Origin: Pelagophyceae sp. CCMP2097
Taxonomy: Eukaryota; Sar; Pelagophyceae
Assembly: GCA_026770575.1 (NCBI GenBank)
Contig: MU657215.1
Location: forward strand, 257,125-306,669
Direction: 5' to 3'
DNA length: 49,545 nucleotides
The notes under the pieces were generated by a model, which saw only the letters and a program-made list of their open reading frames with translations, was not told the origin of the DNA and did no database searches. Below are positions 1,799 to 44,293 of this stretch, piece by piece. Both the position numbers and the translations under genes were made by a program. Numbering within the stretch: position 1 is the stretch's first letter; every line of letters begins with the position of its first letter.

Positions 1799-4700
1799 AT
1801 GCAGCCGCTCTTGAGCGGCCTGCGGCGCGGGGCCGCGCGGCCGCGCACGGCGGCGCTGCTGCGGCGCGCGGTTCTGGACGGGCGGCTGCGGTCTGAGCAG
1901 GGTTCCGAGGACCGGCGAAGCGCCGGCTCCTCGCGCGGCTTCCACGGCACGTGCGCTAGCCTGCTCTACGACCGGCACGACTTTGACGAGAGCGAGCTTC
2001 GACACGCGTCGGAGTCGGACATTGCGAGCGAGATTCGCGAAGGGAAACGGGTAAAGTCCATCGCGGTGACGCGGTCAAAGGGCTCGAACAAATCCGCCTA
2101 CTGCTACGGCTGCGGCGCAGACGTCATCGCCGGCGTCGCCGGCAAGGGCGGCGTCATCGCCACGGACCAGACGAAGAAGCTCGGGTATTGGGAGGAGCAG
2201 AAGCAGGTATTCGACGGCGTCCTTTGCGGAACGCGCGGGCCGCCAAAGGACCGGAGATGTGGCCCATCCGGAGATAGGGCCCATCCGGAGACTGGGGCCG
2301 GAGACAGGGGCCGGATAGCGGGGAGGCTCCCGCAGAGTCGCCGCGGGCCCTCTTGCCTGAAACTCACCGCCCTCGTATAGACTCTGAAAAAGTCGCAGAT
2401 CAAGAACTGGGTGCTCTGCGCGCGGTGCAAGTCTCTTCGGAACCAGGGCCCCGACGCGGCGGGCGTCATCGCCGCGGTGGATAACGCCGAGGCGGTTGAG
2501 ATTTTTAGAACGGAAGTCAGTCGAATTAAGCGAGTCAAGGCCGTCGTCGTGCTCGTGGTGGACGCGCGCAACGTCACGGGCACGTATTTCAAGTCGATTC
2601 GAAACTACGTGGGCGGGAATCCAATCGTGATTGCGATCACTCGGCAAGACCTCTTACCCGACTTTGCCAAGAGAGACACGGCCCATCTGAAGGCGCACAT
2701 TCTGCGCAAGTGCGAGCAAATCGCGCCCGCCGACGTCTTTTTGACGGACGACAACACGCTGGAGAGCGTGCGCGACCTGGCGGAAGCGATTATGGCGCAT
2801 CGGGCGGAGCACGACGTCTATGTCGTCGGAGGCGCAAATATCGGAAAATCGACTCTGACGGACCGTTTGGTCTCCGCTCTCCTGAGGCTTCAGAAAGATG
2901 ACTGGGGCGACACGGTCTACGACGCGAAGAGGAAGGTGGCTTTGAAGGAGCACCGCGTCACGGCGTCGGCTTTACCGGGCACCACTTTATCCAACATTCG
3001 AGTTCCTTGCTTCACCAACCATTTGCAAGCCTTATGGGACACGCCCGGTCTGAAGCTGGACCATTCAAAGGCGCATTTCCCGATTCGAAACTACGACCGA
3101 GTCATCCGGTCGCGGCCCTCGCTCAACCAGTCCGTCGAGCTCCAGGTGGACAACGACGACCCGGACTACTCAAAGGGCTTTGAATTCGTCGTCAAGGAGC
3201 CCGGAGACCCGGCCATGTTCGTCGTCGAGGTGCGTCTTGGTTTGGCGGAGGGCATGCAACTGCGTCTCAAACCGTCTCAAAAATAGGTCCGCTTCAAGCC
3301 AACTGCGTCTCAAAACGTCTCAAAAATAGGTCCGCTTCAAGAAGAAGCCGCAGGGCACGACGCTGCTGAGCTGGAACCCGATTTACCCGGACCTCACCGC
3401 CGAGGTGCTGCCGCTGGGCGCTTCCCGGTTGGAGAAGGAGGCTATCCTTGTCGAGAAGGAAGAGGCGTGGCTCGCGTTCCAAGCAGAACAGGTGGAGATT
3501 TACGCCATCGTCGACCGCAAAATGGCCGAACACAGCGCGTTTCATGCCGCCGAGGAAGAGGCCGCCAACGCCGACGCCGCCGCCGCCGTGGAAGGCGAGG
3601 AGGACGACGAAAAGGTCGTAGAGGTCGACGAGGAGTCTGGCGGCGCGGCGGCGGAGGAATCAGAGGAACCCGAGGAGGAGGACGACTACGCGGCGGAGAA
3701 GAAGTTGCACGCTGAGAACCTGGCCGAGGAGGAAGACGAGGAGGAACAGGCCCAGCTCGACGCCGTCTTGAACAAGGAAGCCAAGAAGAAGTCGCGCGAG
3801 GACCGTTTGGCAATGTACGAGCTGCGCGAGAAGCGCCTTCGGCAGGCTTTAGGGGCGGAAGCGTATTTCCGCCAGAAGAAACATCGAGAGGAGGTGGTGC
3901 TCGAACGATCCCGCGTCCGCAAGTTGGAAAAGCTGCCGACGGTCGCGCAGCTGGCTTTACCGGGACGACGAACTCGCGACGTTGTCATCGACAACTTTGG
4001 GTGGTTCGTCCTCCATACTCCAGAAGACGTCGTCTTCCGCATTTACGCCCCCTCGCTCGGAATCCGCATCTCTCTCGAAGTCCCGCTCGGCGTCCCGCGA
4101 GGGTGGCCCGCGTCCGACGAGCCCGCCGACGAGGCGGCGCCGCAGAGCAAGCGCGACTTTAAGGGAGACGGGCGGTCTCGCGCCGGGAAAGGCGGCAAGG
4201 GCTCTGCCAACGACCACTCTCTGCAAGACGAGCTGGACGACATTGACGCCGAGGAGGACGACGACGAGTTGTCGGACATGTACTCTTTGGACGAGTACGA
4301 CGAGTCTCCCATGGGCGGCTACTTTAGGGGGTTTGCCAGCGAGGAAGATGAGCGCATGGCTGAAATTTGGGGCGACGTCGACTCTGGCGCTCTGGAAGAC
4401 GACCGCCCGACTTTAGGGTGGGACGACGAGGCCGACTCGGCGGCGGCAAAGGGGAAATGGCACGAGAAGAGCGGCAAGGCCATTGGCTGGGAATTCGACG
4501 AGAACAATTCCTGGGGCGCGAAGAAGCGCGGCGTCAAGATGGAACCCGGCTGGAAGCCCATCTTCGTCCCCGAAAATGCCCCCGACATTCGCGCCTTTGT
4601 CAACACGGAAGCCGGCGGCGGCAAGGGCGGCGGCCGCGGCGGCGGCAAGGGCAAGGGCCGCGGCGGCTTCGATGGCGGCAAGGGCCGCGGCGGCTACAAG

Positions 4701-24432: not shown

Positions 24433-27400
24433 TCAGCGGCGGTTGCCTTTGCGGCCCGCCTTGAGCGCGGCGTCGACCATGGCGTTCAAGTCGTCGATGG
24501 ACGGCGCCTCGGGTCGCAGCTGCGTCACGTAAGCAATCTCGTGCCTAGCTCGATGCGTCAACAGAGGCAGGGTCCATCGGAAGCACGCAACCACGCCTCT
24601 TCACCTGGCGCGCAGCTCGCCTCTGAGGTCTTCCCCCGGCGCGCAGCTCGCCTCTGAGGTCTTCCCCCGGCGCGCAGCTCGCCTCTGAGGTCTTCCCCCG
24701 GCGCGCATCCTCTGCGTGTCGGGCACCGCTCGTGCCCTTATGCGGTTTCCTCGCAGACGCCGCCTCTTGCGCTTTGGCGGTGAAGGTGGACCTCTGGTTC
24801 GACGGCGCAAACTTGCGGATGTAAATGTGGACATAGTTCTCCAGCTCCGCTTCCGGCGGAAACGTCAAAAGGCACATCATCAGCAGAGTCCAGCCCTTTT
24901 GGCTCGACTCGTCCGACCTACGAGGGGGTTGCAAAGGTAGGCCGCGACGGTCAAAAGGCGCCTTCGCTCCGGCAGCCCGCGCCGCCGTCACGTCTCGAGG
25001 AGCCGAAAGCCCATTTCTTTCACAAAGGTCTTTTCTGCATCTTCCAAGACGCGGCCTTGTTTGCGGGTTGGACGTGAGCTGCTTCATCAGCTGGCAGTAA
25101 ATCTCCGGCCGCAGCTCGGCCTGGGAGAGGCCCGCCTGCACGACTTCCACGCAGAGGTCGGCGGAAGCGTAAGTGCGTTTCTCGCCCATGAAGCCCATCA
25201 TCGCCCGAAACGCCCGAAGCGCGTCTTTCACCAGCTTGGGCGTCGCCAGCTTCGTCAGCGACGTCAACAACTTGTGCTTGGAGTATAGGAGCATCGTCTC
25301 CGCCTTTTCCTTCTTGTGGCCCGCCAAGAGAGAGCCGGCGCAGGCGTACTCGTCGGGGGACCGGAGGAGGCTCGCTTTTTCGAATTGAAACATGCCAGTG
25401 TACTGGTCCAGGTAGACCTATCTTTCGCGTTTGGGGTTGGCCATTTGCCCGATGGAATGACTCACTTCCTTGAGCGCGATTTCCTTTTCTCGCGCCCTCG
25501 ACTCTTGGCCAGTTTCCCTCGCCTTGACGTACTGTCGCTTCAGCAGCGTCTCCTCGTCGCAGGCCAGGAGCTTTTCGATCTCGCGCATGAACGGGGTTTC
25601 GTACGAGTACTTGTTGGCCTCTGCGTAGAGTTCAGCCATGGGGTCGCGTTCTAATTCGTGCATGACCATTTCAAACTTTGGCGCGAACCGCCTCGTCCTC
25701 GCGCCGTCGAACCGCGAAAACGCGTAGGCGAACCACTGGTCGAAGAGGGGCTCGACCGGGCAGAGCACCGACATTGCTTGGCAATCTCGCATCACTGCTT
25801 GGAACAGCATCGCAAAGGCCGAGTCGTCGCAGTGCAAGTCCTCGTCCGTCGGCTGCGCCGCCATCTCCAGCATGGAAGCCAATCTGGCTGCTTCGCGCAC
25901 GACTGTGAGCAGGCGCTTGGCCTCCTTCCATTCTGCTATCGGGACAGCCACTTCAAAAGTCGAAAACACGCCCAAAGCCTCATCTGTCTCCCTCAGAGCC
26001 TGTTCAAGCATCCCCGCGTCCCTCGACGCCACTGCCGCGGCGAGCTGCGGCCGCACCGCCGTGATGAGACCGAGGTAGCGCCTGGTCAGTTTGCCTCGGC
26101 CGATGGCTTGAATCTTGGCAGAGACGCGGTCTGCCGCGAGTGCCCTGCAAAGTTCCAAGACGCGGTACTCGTCCGCCCTAAATAACAGCATGGTGCGGCC
26201 GCGCTGCAGCCTTTCAAACGTCTGCCTCGAAGCTTTTATAATTTCTTCGCACTGGCCTCTGGCGTCGCTGGATTTAAACGGCTCCCAAGACGCATTCGTC
26301 GACATGATCGACTTGTACCGCACCACGAAGCGGTCGTATTCAAAGCGGAAAGGGAAGCCCTGCTTCCTGATCTTGACCGCTTCAAAGACTCCAGCGCACT
26401 TGAGTTGTTCCAAAACCGCCCCGCCCTCAAACAAAGCCGGGCTCTTCGTCTGGTTCGGCTTGACGCAACGGATGTAGTGCGGCTCCGTCTCCCGGAGCTT
26501 GAGCATCAAACTCGCGAGCTGCTTGCGGAAGTTGGCTCCGAGCGTGGTCTTTGACGCGGTTTCGATTTTGGGAAAGGCCATGCTGACTAAGCTGTTGGTC
26601 GAAGAAGACATTGCGTCGTAGAGGTCTTTGTACAAAGTGTCGGCGTTCTTCTCCACGAAGCCGTCGCAGGAGTAGCAGACCGTGCCCGCGTAGTGCCGTA
26701 CGGAAAAGACGAGGCCTTGCACGCCACGATGTTCGTTCGCGGTGACGTAGTACTCGCCCTTCAACGACCCATCAATCGTCTGGGAGAACTTCGCGTCCTT
26801 CTGCTCCGGCTGCCCGGGGCCCTTGACGGCGTCGTCTAAAGCGGTGAAGATGCCGCCTCGCTTCTCGATGAGGTCGCAAATCGGTTGATTGTCTCTAAAC
26901 TCGATACGAGGAAAGTCCACGCCCTCGTTTGCATACACCGAAGCCTCCGTCTTGAACGTGTGCTCGTTGAACAGCTGCTGCAGCCGCTCGTTTGCGAAAT
27001 TGATGCCTAAGGGTCTTCACGGTGCGCTCTTTGCAGGCTTTCACGGTGCGCTCGTTGCAAGCTTTACACCTTCTTCCAATTTCGGTTTTTGAATTCCGCG
27101 AATTACATTTCAATTCCTGGAATCGCGTTTCGTCAAAAATCGTCGGAATATCGTCGGAATATCGTCGGAATATCCTGGCGCGGCCTCTCCTGCCTCTCCA
27201 CCCGGCGCCGTTCACGGCAGTCGCCCCGGCGTCGTTGCGGTCTCTCGCTCGACGTTTTTAGAGGGCCCGTGGAGTTTCGCAGAGGCCCGTCGCAGCGCCC
27301 GTCGCAGGCTCCGCCTCGGAGGCCGTCGAGAGAGACCGTCGAGATGGTCCGTACTAGGGACCGTCGAGAGGGACCGTCGAGAGGGACCGTCGAGAGGGAC

Positions 27401-30400
27401 TATCAAGGCCCGTGTATCAGGGCTTGTTGAGAAGGCCCGTCTCTTCGGGCCTGTCTCTTCGGGCCCGGAGCAGGGTCCGTCGAGAGGGCCTGGATCGAGG
27501 GCCCGTACCAGGGTTCATCTCGAGAAACCGTGCAGAGGGATCGTAAAGAGGGCCCGGAGCAGTCCTTCGCAGGGTCCGTCTCGAGGGGCCGTCTTGAGGG
27601 CCCGTATCCGGGCCTGCAGGGCCCCGTCTCGAGGGACCTTGTAGAGGGACCTTGTCGAGGGTCCATCTCTATGGACCGTCGACGAGGCACCGTCTCAGGG
27701 CCCATGTTGCAGGGCTCGTTGAGGGAGCCCATACAGAGGGCCCGTATCAGGCTCCGCCTCAAAAGTCCGTCTTGAGGCACTGGAGCGGTGCCCTCGATGG
27801 GGCCACCGAGGCGCGTTTTCCCGGGTCCGTTGCAGCGTTCGTTTCGGCGGTTTCAGAGAGCTATCTTGCAGTCCACGGATTCGGTCGATGCCGGGTTTGC
27901 GTTCGAGGCTCCACGCGGTTGGGGCACAGAGCTGCTCAAATGAATTGATTTTAAATATTTCAAATCCAAAAATGTCCAAAATGCCAATAAACCGTTTCAC
28001 CTATATTTCAAATCCAAAAATGTCCAGAATGCCAATAAACCGTTGCACCTGCCCCGCCGGCGCCTCGAGCGCAGCATTGACGCGGTCGACCAGCCAGTCG
28101 AAGAGGTTGTCGTAGACGTACCTAAAACGCCTTTTCAAGCTTGGCCGTCATGCTTGGCCACAAAGAAAAGTGGCCCGCGAAGCAAGAATCAAACGCCAGA
28201 CGCTTCAAGAGGCTCAAATGCCACGAAACAAGCCTTTGACGATTTACGCGGCCGCAAAGAGACGCACTTTGCCAGCGCGTCTCGGTTCTCGTACGACTGC
28301 GCGACCCTGAGCGCGACGGCCATGTCCTTTTGGCCCCGAATCTGCAAAGTCCGATGCGTCAGCGCCTCGCCGAGCGTGGCCACGTCGGCGCCGAGGTGCA
28401 TGGCGACTTCGGCGATGGCCGGTACGGACTTTGGCGAAACTTTGGAACCGTCGGTCATGCCCCCGATGGGCTCGAATTGCACCGTGGAGAGTTTCAGAAT
28501 GGCCGCGAGGATGGCCAGAATCTGCCCCGTCGAGTCGTCGCCGAAACCCAAGGCATTGAAAGCGCCGAGAACGTCGTCGAACTCTGAGGCGTCGTCGACG
28601 CCGGGCACCCTTAAGCAGTTGTTCAGATAATCATACGACTCCGCCCCTTGCACGTTATAACAAGCCGCGGACGACCCGCAGCAGAGCTGGTAGAAGACGT
28701 GGTAGTTGCGCTCCTCGTCGGCCTGGCCCTGGACTCTCGATTTTTCGAGCAAGTAGTTGAAGAGCTTGGCCCCTGAGATTCGGAGCTGCGAGTCCAGCTG
28801 CACTTTGGTAAATCTGCCGAACCGCGAAGAGTTGTCGTTTCGAGTCGTCTTGGCGTTGCCAAAGGCCTCGAGGATGGGGTTCGCGGAGAGGACGCGCTGC
28901 TCGATGTTCGAAGATGTCGACCCAGCGACTTCCGCTAAAAACGAAAGGCACTGTTTTGTGGCCTCGGTCTTGCCCGCCCCCGACTCGCCAGAGACCAAGA
29001 TGGCCTGGTCCGCGTCGTCGTCCAGAATAGCCTGGTGCGCCGCGTGCGCCAGCTTGTACCTAGAGGGCGCGGTGCAGTACACGCCGGGTTGCACGTCGGG
29101 GGACATCTTTTCCGAAGAAATTCGACGCCGCGCTTCACGGGTGCGGCGGCATGGGCTTGTTCCCCGCGCGGTGGTACGCCTCGATGCGCTCCGTGCCGTA
29201 CAGAGGCAACCTACGGGTGGTGTCGCGCCGGCGACTTTCCAAACAAAGGCGTCACCTGCGGAACGGATTCAGCGCGATGAGGATACCACCGACTGCGGTG
29301 TAAATCTTGTCCTGTTTATACCTTTCCCGCAGGTTATGAAGCACCAAACCCTCATCTAAAGAATCCAACAACACCAAGTCCGGCTGCAGCCGGGAAAGCG
29401 TAGAGTGCACTAGCGGCAGGACCAACTCGCCGCGCTTGGCCTTGCGTTTTTCGCCCGTTTTGGAAACGTCGTAGACCCCACCGCCCACGCCCCGCGCGGC
29501 CACGTAGCCCTCCGAAGCGTCCTGCAGCCAGACCCAGCCGGCGCCGGCGTCCTCAGTCTCCAAATTCGACCGCAGCTCCTCGGGCGTGTTCCAGGTCAGC
29601 TGGCCCGATGATGTCTGGAGATAGTAAGGGACCATGTCGCAAGTCAATTTCTTCACCCACCCGCCCGACAGCCCCACCCGCTGCGTCGATGAAGGCCGCC
29701 GAGTCAGCTCGCGGTCCGCGCGCTTCTGCACCGCAGCCGAGCGGTCCGCCGCGGCCTTGCGCTCAGGGGATGGGGTCGCCGCTAAAGCTTTGCGCGCGCC
29801 CGTCGGTTGTGACGCCTTGGACACCACGGGCGCCGCGGGCGGGTCCGGCGTCGCAGACGCGCCCTAGGTCACAGGCGTCGAGGCGCCAGCGTCGGGCGCA
29901 CAGGACGTCTGATATCGGAGAACGTCTGGCCGAGGCGCACCCGCTTCGCCGGCGGCGGTGGTGGAGGCGGCTCGATGATCTTCTTCAGGATGGGCAGCCT
30001 GCGCAGACGGCGACGGTGCGAAAGAACTCTTGGATTCATGCCGAGAAGACGGTAGGATTTCCGACTGTGTGTGTGTAACTCACGAGTCGACTGTGACCCA
30101 ATCTTCAAACCCGTCGCCGTAAATGTGGCAGTTGCCGTGCAGGTTCTTCCCCAACCACTCGCGCCGCAGCTCCTCCAGCTCGGACGGGCCCATCTACGCG
30201 TCGCCAAGTGGCGCGGGGGATGCGGCAGAATCGGCCTTTTTCGCCCGCCGCCCGACCCGCCTTCCGTGGCCAAAGCGGCGCGCCTGCGCACCTGGTCGCC
30301 GCTGGCCGACTGCCAGAAGTAGTGCAAGCAGAGCAGCTCCTAATGCCAAGCGCAATGTGCGGGGCCTCGGGCCGAAGCGCCCTTCGGAAAGCGACCTTTG

Positions 30401-43298: not shown

Positions 43299-44293
43299 AT
43301 GCCCGTCCTGCGGCTGGCGGGGTCCCCAAACGGCCTCCTCGTGACGAAGCGCGTCGCCCGAGATGGCCGCGCAGTGGCGGCGCGGTTGCGAAAAATTCTC
43401 TGGCTGGACCGCATCGCAAAGGGCGCGGCGATCCTCAAGGGGCACGCCGGCAGAGTCATGAGCTGCGCGTTCTCGCCCGACGGCAAGCGCCTCATGACGG
43501 CGAGCAGCGACGGCACGGCGCGGATCTGGGACGCGGAGACGGGCGCGCTGCAGATCACGCTCGTGGGGCACACCAACGACGTCAACGCCTGCGCGTTCTC
43601 GCCAGACAGCGAGAGCATTGTCATGGCGAGCGACGTCGGGACAGCGCGGCTCTGCTGCTAACTCTCGAGAGGCACGCCTCCTCGGTCATTGGCTGCGCGT
43701 TCTCGCCCGACGGCACGCGCATCGTGACGGCGAGCGCCGACGAGACGGCGCGGCTCTGGGACGCCGCGACGGGCGCGCTGGTGACAACGCTCGAGGGACA
43801 CGCCGACGCCGTCGCCAGCTGCGCGTTCTCGTTCGACGGCACTCGCGTTTTGACGGCGGGCATCGACGAGACGGCGAAGCTCTGGGACGCGGAGACGGGC
43901 GCGCTGCTGACGACGCTCGAAGGGCACATCGACACCGTCTTGTGCTGCGCGTTCTCGCCCGACGGCACGCGCGTCATGACAGCAAGCGACGACAAGACGG
44001 CGCGGCTCTGGGCCGCCGCGACGGGCGCGCTGCAGGCGACGCTCGAGGGGCACACCAGCTACGTCGAATGCTGCGCGTTCTCGCCCGACGGCACGCGCGT
44101 CATGACAGCGAGCGACGACAAGACGGCGCGGCTCTGGGACGCCGCGACGGGCGCGCTGCAGGCGACGCTCGAGGGGCACACCAGCTACGTCGAATGCTGC
44201 GCGTTCTCGCCCGACGGCACGCGCCTCGTTATGGCGAGCGGCGACTCGACGGCGCGGCTCTGGGGCGCCGCGCTCTGGTTGAAAGCAACATAA
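43299..44293 (+). CDS. WD40-repeat protein with internal frame break
   Basis: The first part (43299-43661) opens MPVLRLAGSPNG, then LKGHAGRVMSCAFSPDGKRL and a second repeat up to DVGTARLCC and a stop. The second part, from about 43660, continues in another frame: HASSVIGCAFSPDGTRIVTA through four more WD units to the stop at 44293. Against the neighbouring repeats, 19 bases (the WDAATGA segment) are missing at about 43655, shifting the frame. Alternatives are a sequencing or assembly error, a real pseudogene, or a 35-bp intron (43637-43671, GTCGGG...CTCGAG, with a CTAAC branch-like motif) that would restore frame but shorten a blade. Six or seven repeats of 42 residues would form a propeller. 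Partners are unknown. Confidence 0.7.
43943..44194 (+). repeat. 126-bp WD-unit tandem duplication
   Basis: The 42-codon WD unit starting at 43943 is repeated at 44069 and again, partially, at 44195. The two full units differ at only a few bases (WAAATGA versus WDAATGA; HIDTV versus HTSYV at the borders). This level of DNA identity indicates recent duplication or gene conversion. Confidence 0.8.

Follow-up and report, generated by a model that had tools for sequence, protein, structure and literature searches.

A putative myosin intron in a pelagophyte alga that probably arose by tandem duplication of 48 exonic bases starting at AGGT

Tandem genomic duplication is a listed mechanism of intron gain, and the available excerpts count 188 events and mention that it has been demonstrated in vivo (PMC3443670). 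In the ATP2A1 system (Hellsten 2011; PMC4974935, PMC3443670), as excerpted, an exonic segment that carries AGGT is duplicated in tandem, the first AGGT supplies the donor and the second the acceptor, and the protein is left unchanged. Short exonic tandem repeats have also become introns via proto-splice sites in the fission yeast genes SPOG_01682 and SOCG_00815. The excerpted account describes two introns from 24-base repeats, with AGGC sites, several units and partial EST support (PMC3629103). A tandem duplication is likewise the source of an intron in potato RdRp, where an intron-exon border lies within the duplicated piece and most splicing signals are inherited (PMC4974935). A different route is taken by the introners of Aureococcus and other algae, which are described as multi-copy mobile elements (PMC9860276).

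Our analysis concerns a window of 49,545 nucleotides from the Arctic alga Pelagophyceae sp. CCMP2097 (contig MU657215.1, positions 257,125 to 306,669), which is part of a 66.2-Mb assembly. According to the available text, the genome was assembled with AllPathsLG from Illumina reads of 2x100 or 2x150, and annotation used the JGI pipeline with a transcriptome (PMC9756366). The window contains a myosin gene, of which nine exons were read (Table 1); its true start is further upstream than 29827. Introns 1 to 8 measure 45, 79, 146, 48, 921, 48, 147 and 226 bases, with introns 7 and 8 placed by eye against relatives. For two introns of the gene (GCAAAC and GCAAGA; 24918-25064 and 24545-24770, minus strand), a GC-AG type is the best reading. 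Minisatellites with units of 11, 13, 14, 24 and 31 bases are located inside introns 5 and 8 (27016-27703 and 24598-24707).

Table 1. Features of the myosin gene around the putative intron 4
Feature	Positions	Strand	Basis or remark
Myosin gene, part read; 9 exons, motor and MyTH4 domains	24433..29827	-	Frame open to stop at 24433
Intron 1, 45 bases	29211..29255	-	Introns as short as intron 4 exist in the gene
Exon 4, 73 bases, 67% GC, ends CAG	28049..28121	-	Sequence
Copy 1 of 48-base unit, AGGTGCAAC / AGGTGCAACGG...GAAATAT, AGGTG...AAATAT	28003..28050	-	46/48 identical to copy 2
Putative intron 4, 48 bases, GTGCAACG...AAATATAG, phase 0	28001..28048	-	Sequence; P0001 lacks exactly these bases
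Copy 2 of 48-base unit, AGGTGAAAC / AGGTGAAACGG...GAAATAT	27955..28002	-	46/48 identical to copy 1
Exon 5, 73 bases, 30% GC, switch II region, presumed source of intron 4	27928..28000	-	Sequence
Intron 5, 921 bases, with minisatellites	27007..27927	-	Sequence
Intron 6, 48 bases, GTGAGT...GATAG	25418..25465	-	Read through in public model

A preliminary description of this DNA had matched 28048-28001 with 28000-27953 on the minus strand, and direct comparison gives the same 44 identities in 48 positions. The natural register is shifted two bases upstream of that one. It consists of a 48-base head-to-tail unit whose copies agree at 46 of 48 positions, with copy 2 directly adjoining copy 1 and no bases between. 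The C that precedes the unit does not match the T that is its last base, and the T that follows the array does not match the A that is its first. Because both flanking bases mismatch, the unit is exactly 48 bases long and starts exactly at AGGT. The tandem duplication of an AGGT-containing exon segment, as first described, is therefore present, and the unit itself begins with this motif. The base changes from TT to AG that had been proposed to make the acceptor are an artefact of the register chosen, because the AG is simply the start of the second AGGT and involves no mutation.

The length and identity of the repeat exclude a chance origin. Tandem repeats as such are common in the window (40 TRF rows). 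In a search of the 66-Mb assembly that skipped simple repeats and very common words, the 48-base stretch has a single match, and it is thus not an introner, which would exist as many near-identical intronic copies in the genome. AGGT occurs three times in the coding sequence of 3,126 bases (a length that counts the last exon three bases too long). An AGGT pair results from 138 of the 3,078 possible 48-base duplications of this sequence, and three of these 138 also create an in-frame stop. Predicted folding of the region is weaker than that of shuffled sequences (z 1.72).

The whole of copy 1 except its AG lies inside the putative intron, whereas the AG of copy 2 provides the acceptor and the remainder of that copy is exon. 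The GT start, ATATAG end and in-frame stop attributed to the first copy are all there, and the stop is TAG. Keeping the 48 bases leads to this stop, and taking them out as a GT-AG intron gives an open frame. The claim that removal restores the switch II region thus holds, and the resulting frame is the same as that of the public protein P0001. The predicted junction is ...GCGGGGCAG joined to GTGAAACGG, with 48 bases removed. From these features we infer that the 48 bases are removed from RNA.

P0001, annotated as 'P-loop containing nucleoside triphosphate hydrolase protein [Pelagophyceae sp. CCMP2097]', is 100% identical over the searched region to the spliced conceptual protein used as query. 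Because the model of exons 1 to 6 is contained in P0001 without mismatch from the model's second residue on, P0001 lacks exactly the 48 bases. After exon 6, P0001 continues for 15 residues read from intron 6 and then ends, without the MyTH4 end that the DNA keeps open (24433-25465, minus strand). Because this end is missing, P0001 is partly a prediction and does not prove splicing; the stop may have forced the public model to skip the 48 bases. Among the best 120 matches of each of three protein searches, no transcript-derived peptide of CCMP2097 lies over the junction.

Like intron 4, all seven other introns of the myosin gene end in TAG/G (the slash marks the splice site). Five of these seven have GTG donors, and over all eight introns there are six GTG and two GC donors. 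Two of the other introns, of 45 and 48 bases, are close to intron 4 in length. In 194,391 readable bases of the window and the fetched stretches, GTG[AC]GT followed by TAGG at 40-60 bases was observed 24 times, against an expectation of 6.3 derived from distances of 300-900 (P 5e-8). No comparable excess after GTG[AC]GT was found in these bases for CAGG, AAGG or GAGG. The intron ends and the TAGG excess together suggest that the short introns of this alga seem to require TAG/G. GTGCAA as a donor is not itself in excess, with 3 places versus 2.0 expected, one of them being intron 4 itself. A myosin paralogue in another stretch (L024, 382-447) carries an in-frame 66-base sequence, GTCCGT...GCGTAG/GTC, which reads as an insert with a stop. 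This sequence is probably an intron, again ending in TAG/G.

Under the plain duplication model, AGGT may occupy any position within the duplicated unit. A unit starting further upstream would give CAG/GT, because the upstream context is GGGCAG/GT. The junction ATATAG/GT requires a unit that, as here, starts with AGGT and has T as its last base. Thus, a need for TAG/G would account for the start at AGGT, a coincidence that we put, from the unit length, at roughly one in 46.

These features make it probable that an exon segment was duplicated at AGGT and became a new spliced intron, with message and protein unchanged. The present exons 4 and 5 would once have been one continuous exon, in which 48 bases were duplicated head to tail from AGGT. 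The first AGGT would have become the donor CAG/GTG, and the end of copy 1 (ATAT) with the AG of copy 2 would have become the acceptor TAG/GTG; both sites are visible in the sequence. The T before the acceptor AG would come from the other end of the unit, and the TAG acceptor would have arisen at the duplication junction with no mutation required. The spliceosome would take out the 48 bases and leave message and protein as before, and a message retaining them would meet the stop and be lost or encode a dead motor. A candidate repair route is the filling-in and joining of protruding ends at a break, which fits the absence of matching bases at the junction; another study deals with small tandem duplications that arise at breaks (PMC8355091, as excerpted). 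The interpretation of the locus as intron birth thus retains its duplication, AGGT, boundaries and switch II, and loses its TT-to-AG step.

P0001 can be aligned with all 352 others in a set of 353 proteins, and 350 of these extend across the site. Fewer than 8 residues are inserted near the site in 341 of these 350 and 8 or more (up to 25) in nine, in lists of best matches that are biased towards sequences spanning the site and from which relatives with an intron at this site would tend to drop out. Ninety-six relatives are short, with unaligned tails, and are probably unspliced frames; 93 of them cross the site without an insert of 8 or more residues. The alignments of P0124, P0125 and P0250 begin at the boundary of intron 3, and intron 3 looks common to these relatives and intron 4 does not. 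For P0148, the alignment to P0001 begins only at residue 596, which is the site itself. In P0300, a few positions downstream of the site, 24 residues are unmatched and resemble a read-through intron. These two proteins are distant (47-60% identity to the proteins with which they were compared), and they may point to introns in other lineages, at this position or close to it. The loop preceding the site varies, however, and the breaks in P0148 and P0300 need not share one place. In a tree, P0001 is placed with Aureococcus proteins at 94/91, which is below the tool's mark for firm support, and a group of six rows that includes P0001, Aureococcus and Chrysophaeum has support of 100/100. Judged from protein frames only, the gain probably postdates the split of the CCMP2097 lineage from the Aureococcus lineage.

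Searching all six frames of the genome for the myosin motor yielded at least 33 matches. Fourteen other myosin loci extend as far as the site (about position 363 of the profile), and none shows an intron there: 12 cross it in a single match, C21 covers it, and the gap of C22 at this point is a coding loop. Coding is uninterrupted at the site in all seven loci that were read in letters (C46, C22, C21, C44, C10, C94 and C205), and the other seven were judged from the match table, which leaves room for a stop-free insert. C274 has a single TGA somewhere inside its match. At the position that corresponds to intron 4, C205 (L030) has CAG GTC AAG, which includes an AGGT, and no intron.

Exon 5 is richer in AT than any other part of the gene, with 30% GC versus 58-71% in exons 1-4 and 6, and with a GC3 of 0.375 versus 0.784. 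When codons for the same residues were drawn 20,000 times from the rest of the gene, a GC3 this low appeared at a frequency of 0.00025. Within the window, only the 120-base stretch of intron 4 and exon 5 forms an island of 32% GC or less, and 11 such islands exist in the 181,185 positions scored in the window and stretches L002-L021. In four paralogues, the GC content of the corresponding segment is 42-55%. Exon 5 (minus strand) is a sharply bounded AT-rich island inside a GC-rich gene. Two protein-based scans of viral contigs for a viral source of exon 5 gave no confirmed myosin relative, and a search with its DNA pattern for a viral or other source gave no match.

The composition break counts against the plain duplication model, because it is a coincidence under that model that the AGGT at which the unit starts is also the point where composition changes. 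That copy boundary, splice site and the switch from GC-rich exon 4 to AT-rich exon 5 coincide would instead favor an older intron at this site, whose original content was replaced with a copy of the following exon through conversion or break repair, with no intron gained. The possible introns of P0148 and P0300 point the same way, except that their breaks fall in a variable loop and need not sit at the same place. Nothing is left of any older intron, however, and the requirement for TAG/G explains the boundary without one. Given also that none of the 14 other loci shows an intron at the site, and that 341 of the 350 spanning relatives (from lists biased to such sequences) have fewer than 8 inserted residues there, we regard an overwritten intron as unlikely.

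The two differences in 48 bases (95% interval 0.5 to 14%) indicate an apparently recent duplication, the age being loosely set by so few changes. At the lowest age that they allow, an undamaged frame would be unsurprising (P 0.26) even if the duplication were a disabling one that is not spliced, leaving the gene or allele broken. Had the gene been broken since, however, about 11 disabling changes would be expected by the central estimate and 1.3 at the lower bound, assuming indels at 10% of substitutions. None is observed in the rest of the 3,735-base frame, and this intact frame favors splicing of the 48 bases. Because acceptor and length moreover match the short introns of the genome, a broken gene is improbable, more so than an overwritten intron. 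Still less probable is a false second copy created during assembly. The short-read AllPathsLG assembly (PMC9756366, as excerpted) might invite such an error, but the copies differ at two bases, the 96-base array is within reach of 150-base reads, and a second version of the locus was not found in the assembly. Two near-identical coding copies side by side could also suggest alternative exons produced by exon duplication. Mutually exclusive duplicated exons are both coding and have an intron between them; here, the copies are adjacent, with no intron, and copy 1 runs into an in-frame stop and lacks the second part of exon 5. We consider this explanation extremely improbable.

Other tandem duplications were surveyed in 232,109 readable bases (L002, L012 and parts of other stretches read N), a small sample that yields no rate. 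The window and L002-L021 contain 26, of which three have an AGGT pair. All three are inside the window: the 48-base myosin unit, a 43-base case, and a 31-base minisatellite whose AGGT is on the strand opposite that of the myosin gene. L023 has five tandem duplication rows, one of them with an AGGT pair (a 28-base minisatellite), and the three rows from L027-L030 include none with such a pair. At 3257-3341 (plus strand), two copies of the 43-base unit straddle the 3' end of an intron in a GTPase gene. This intron has its donor at 3230 and TAG/G at both 3286 and 3329. Because the downstream frame is compatible only with the second TAG/G, either the intron lengthened from 57 to 100 bases or it acquired an additional GT-AG piece of 43 bases. 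Repeat growth within a coding frame is seen at 43692-44272 (plus strand), where a 126-base repeat is present in 4.6 copies that are 86% alike; from its residues, we take it to code for WD-like repeats.

Short tandem duplications at AG/GT might conceivably be a standing source of new or remodelled introns in this genome, with a strict TAG/G filtering the survivors and pinning unit ends to the splice site. We hold this generalization to be doubtful. If it is true, the 43-base case in the GTPase gene belongs to the same pattern of duplication plus filter. In a genome with strict TAG/G acceptors, whether a duplication is spliceable may depend on where its ends lie and not solely on AGGT being there. 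This possible filtering of duplication ends by the acceptor is the part most worth testing.

Literature searches on the introns of this genome and on intron gain by tandem duplication returned no paper on this locus among the matches listed. The route to new introns is already known, and the myosin case is a very clean example of it. Introns whose source sequence is still legible are rare; here, source and product adjoin and differ at two positions. As in Aureococcus, the gain would be in a pelagophyte, but unlike the multi-copy introners (PMC9860276), the myosin sequence has one match in its genome. With the potato RdRp intron (PMC4974935), it would share an origin in tandem duplication, but the potato duplication spans an intron-exon border, and the 43-base duplication is closer to that case. 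Like the fission yeast introns (PMC3629103), it would derive from a short exonic repeat with proto-splice sites, although here there is a single unit and the sites are AGGT. With ATP2A1 (PMC4974935, PMC3443670), it would have in common a tandem duplication of an exonic AGGT segment, the use of first and second AGGT as donor and acceptor, and an unchanged protein. The myosin case, which differs from both the ATP2A1 and yeast systems in being known from DNA alone, is set apart from ATP2A1 as excerpted by its unit of only 48 bases, the 96% identity of its copies, its pelagophyte host, and a unit that starts exactly at AGGT and whose far end contributes the T, giving TAG/G rather than CAG/G.
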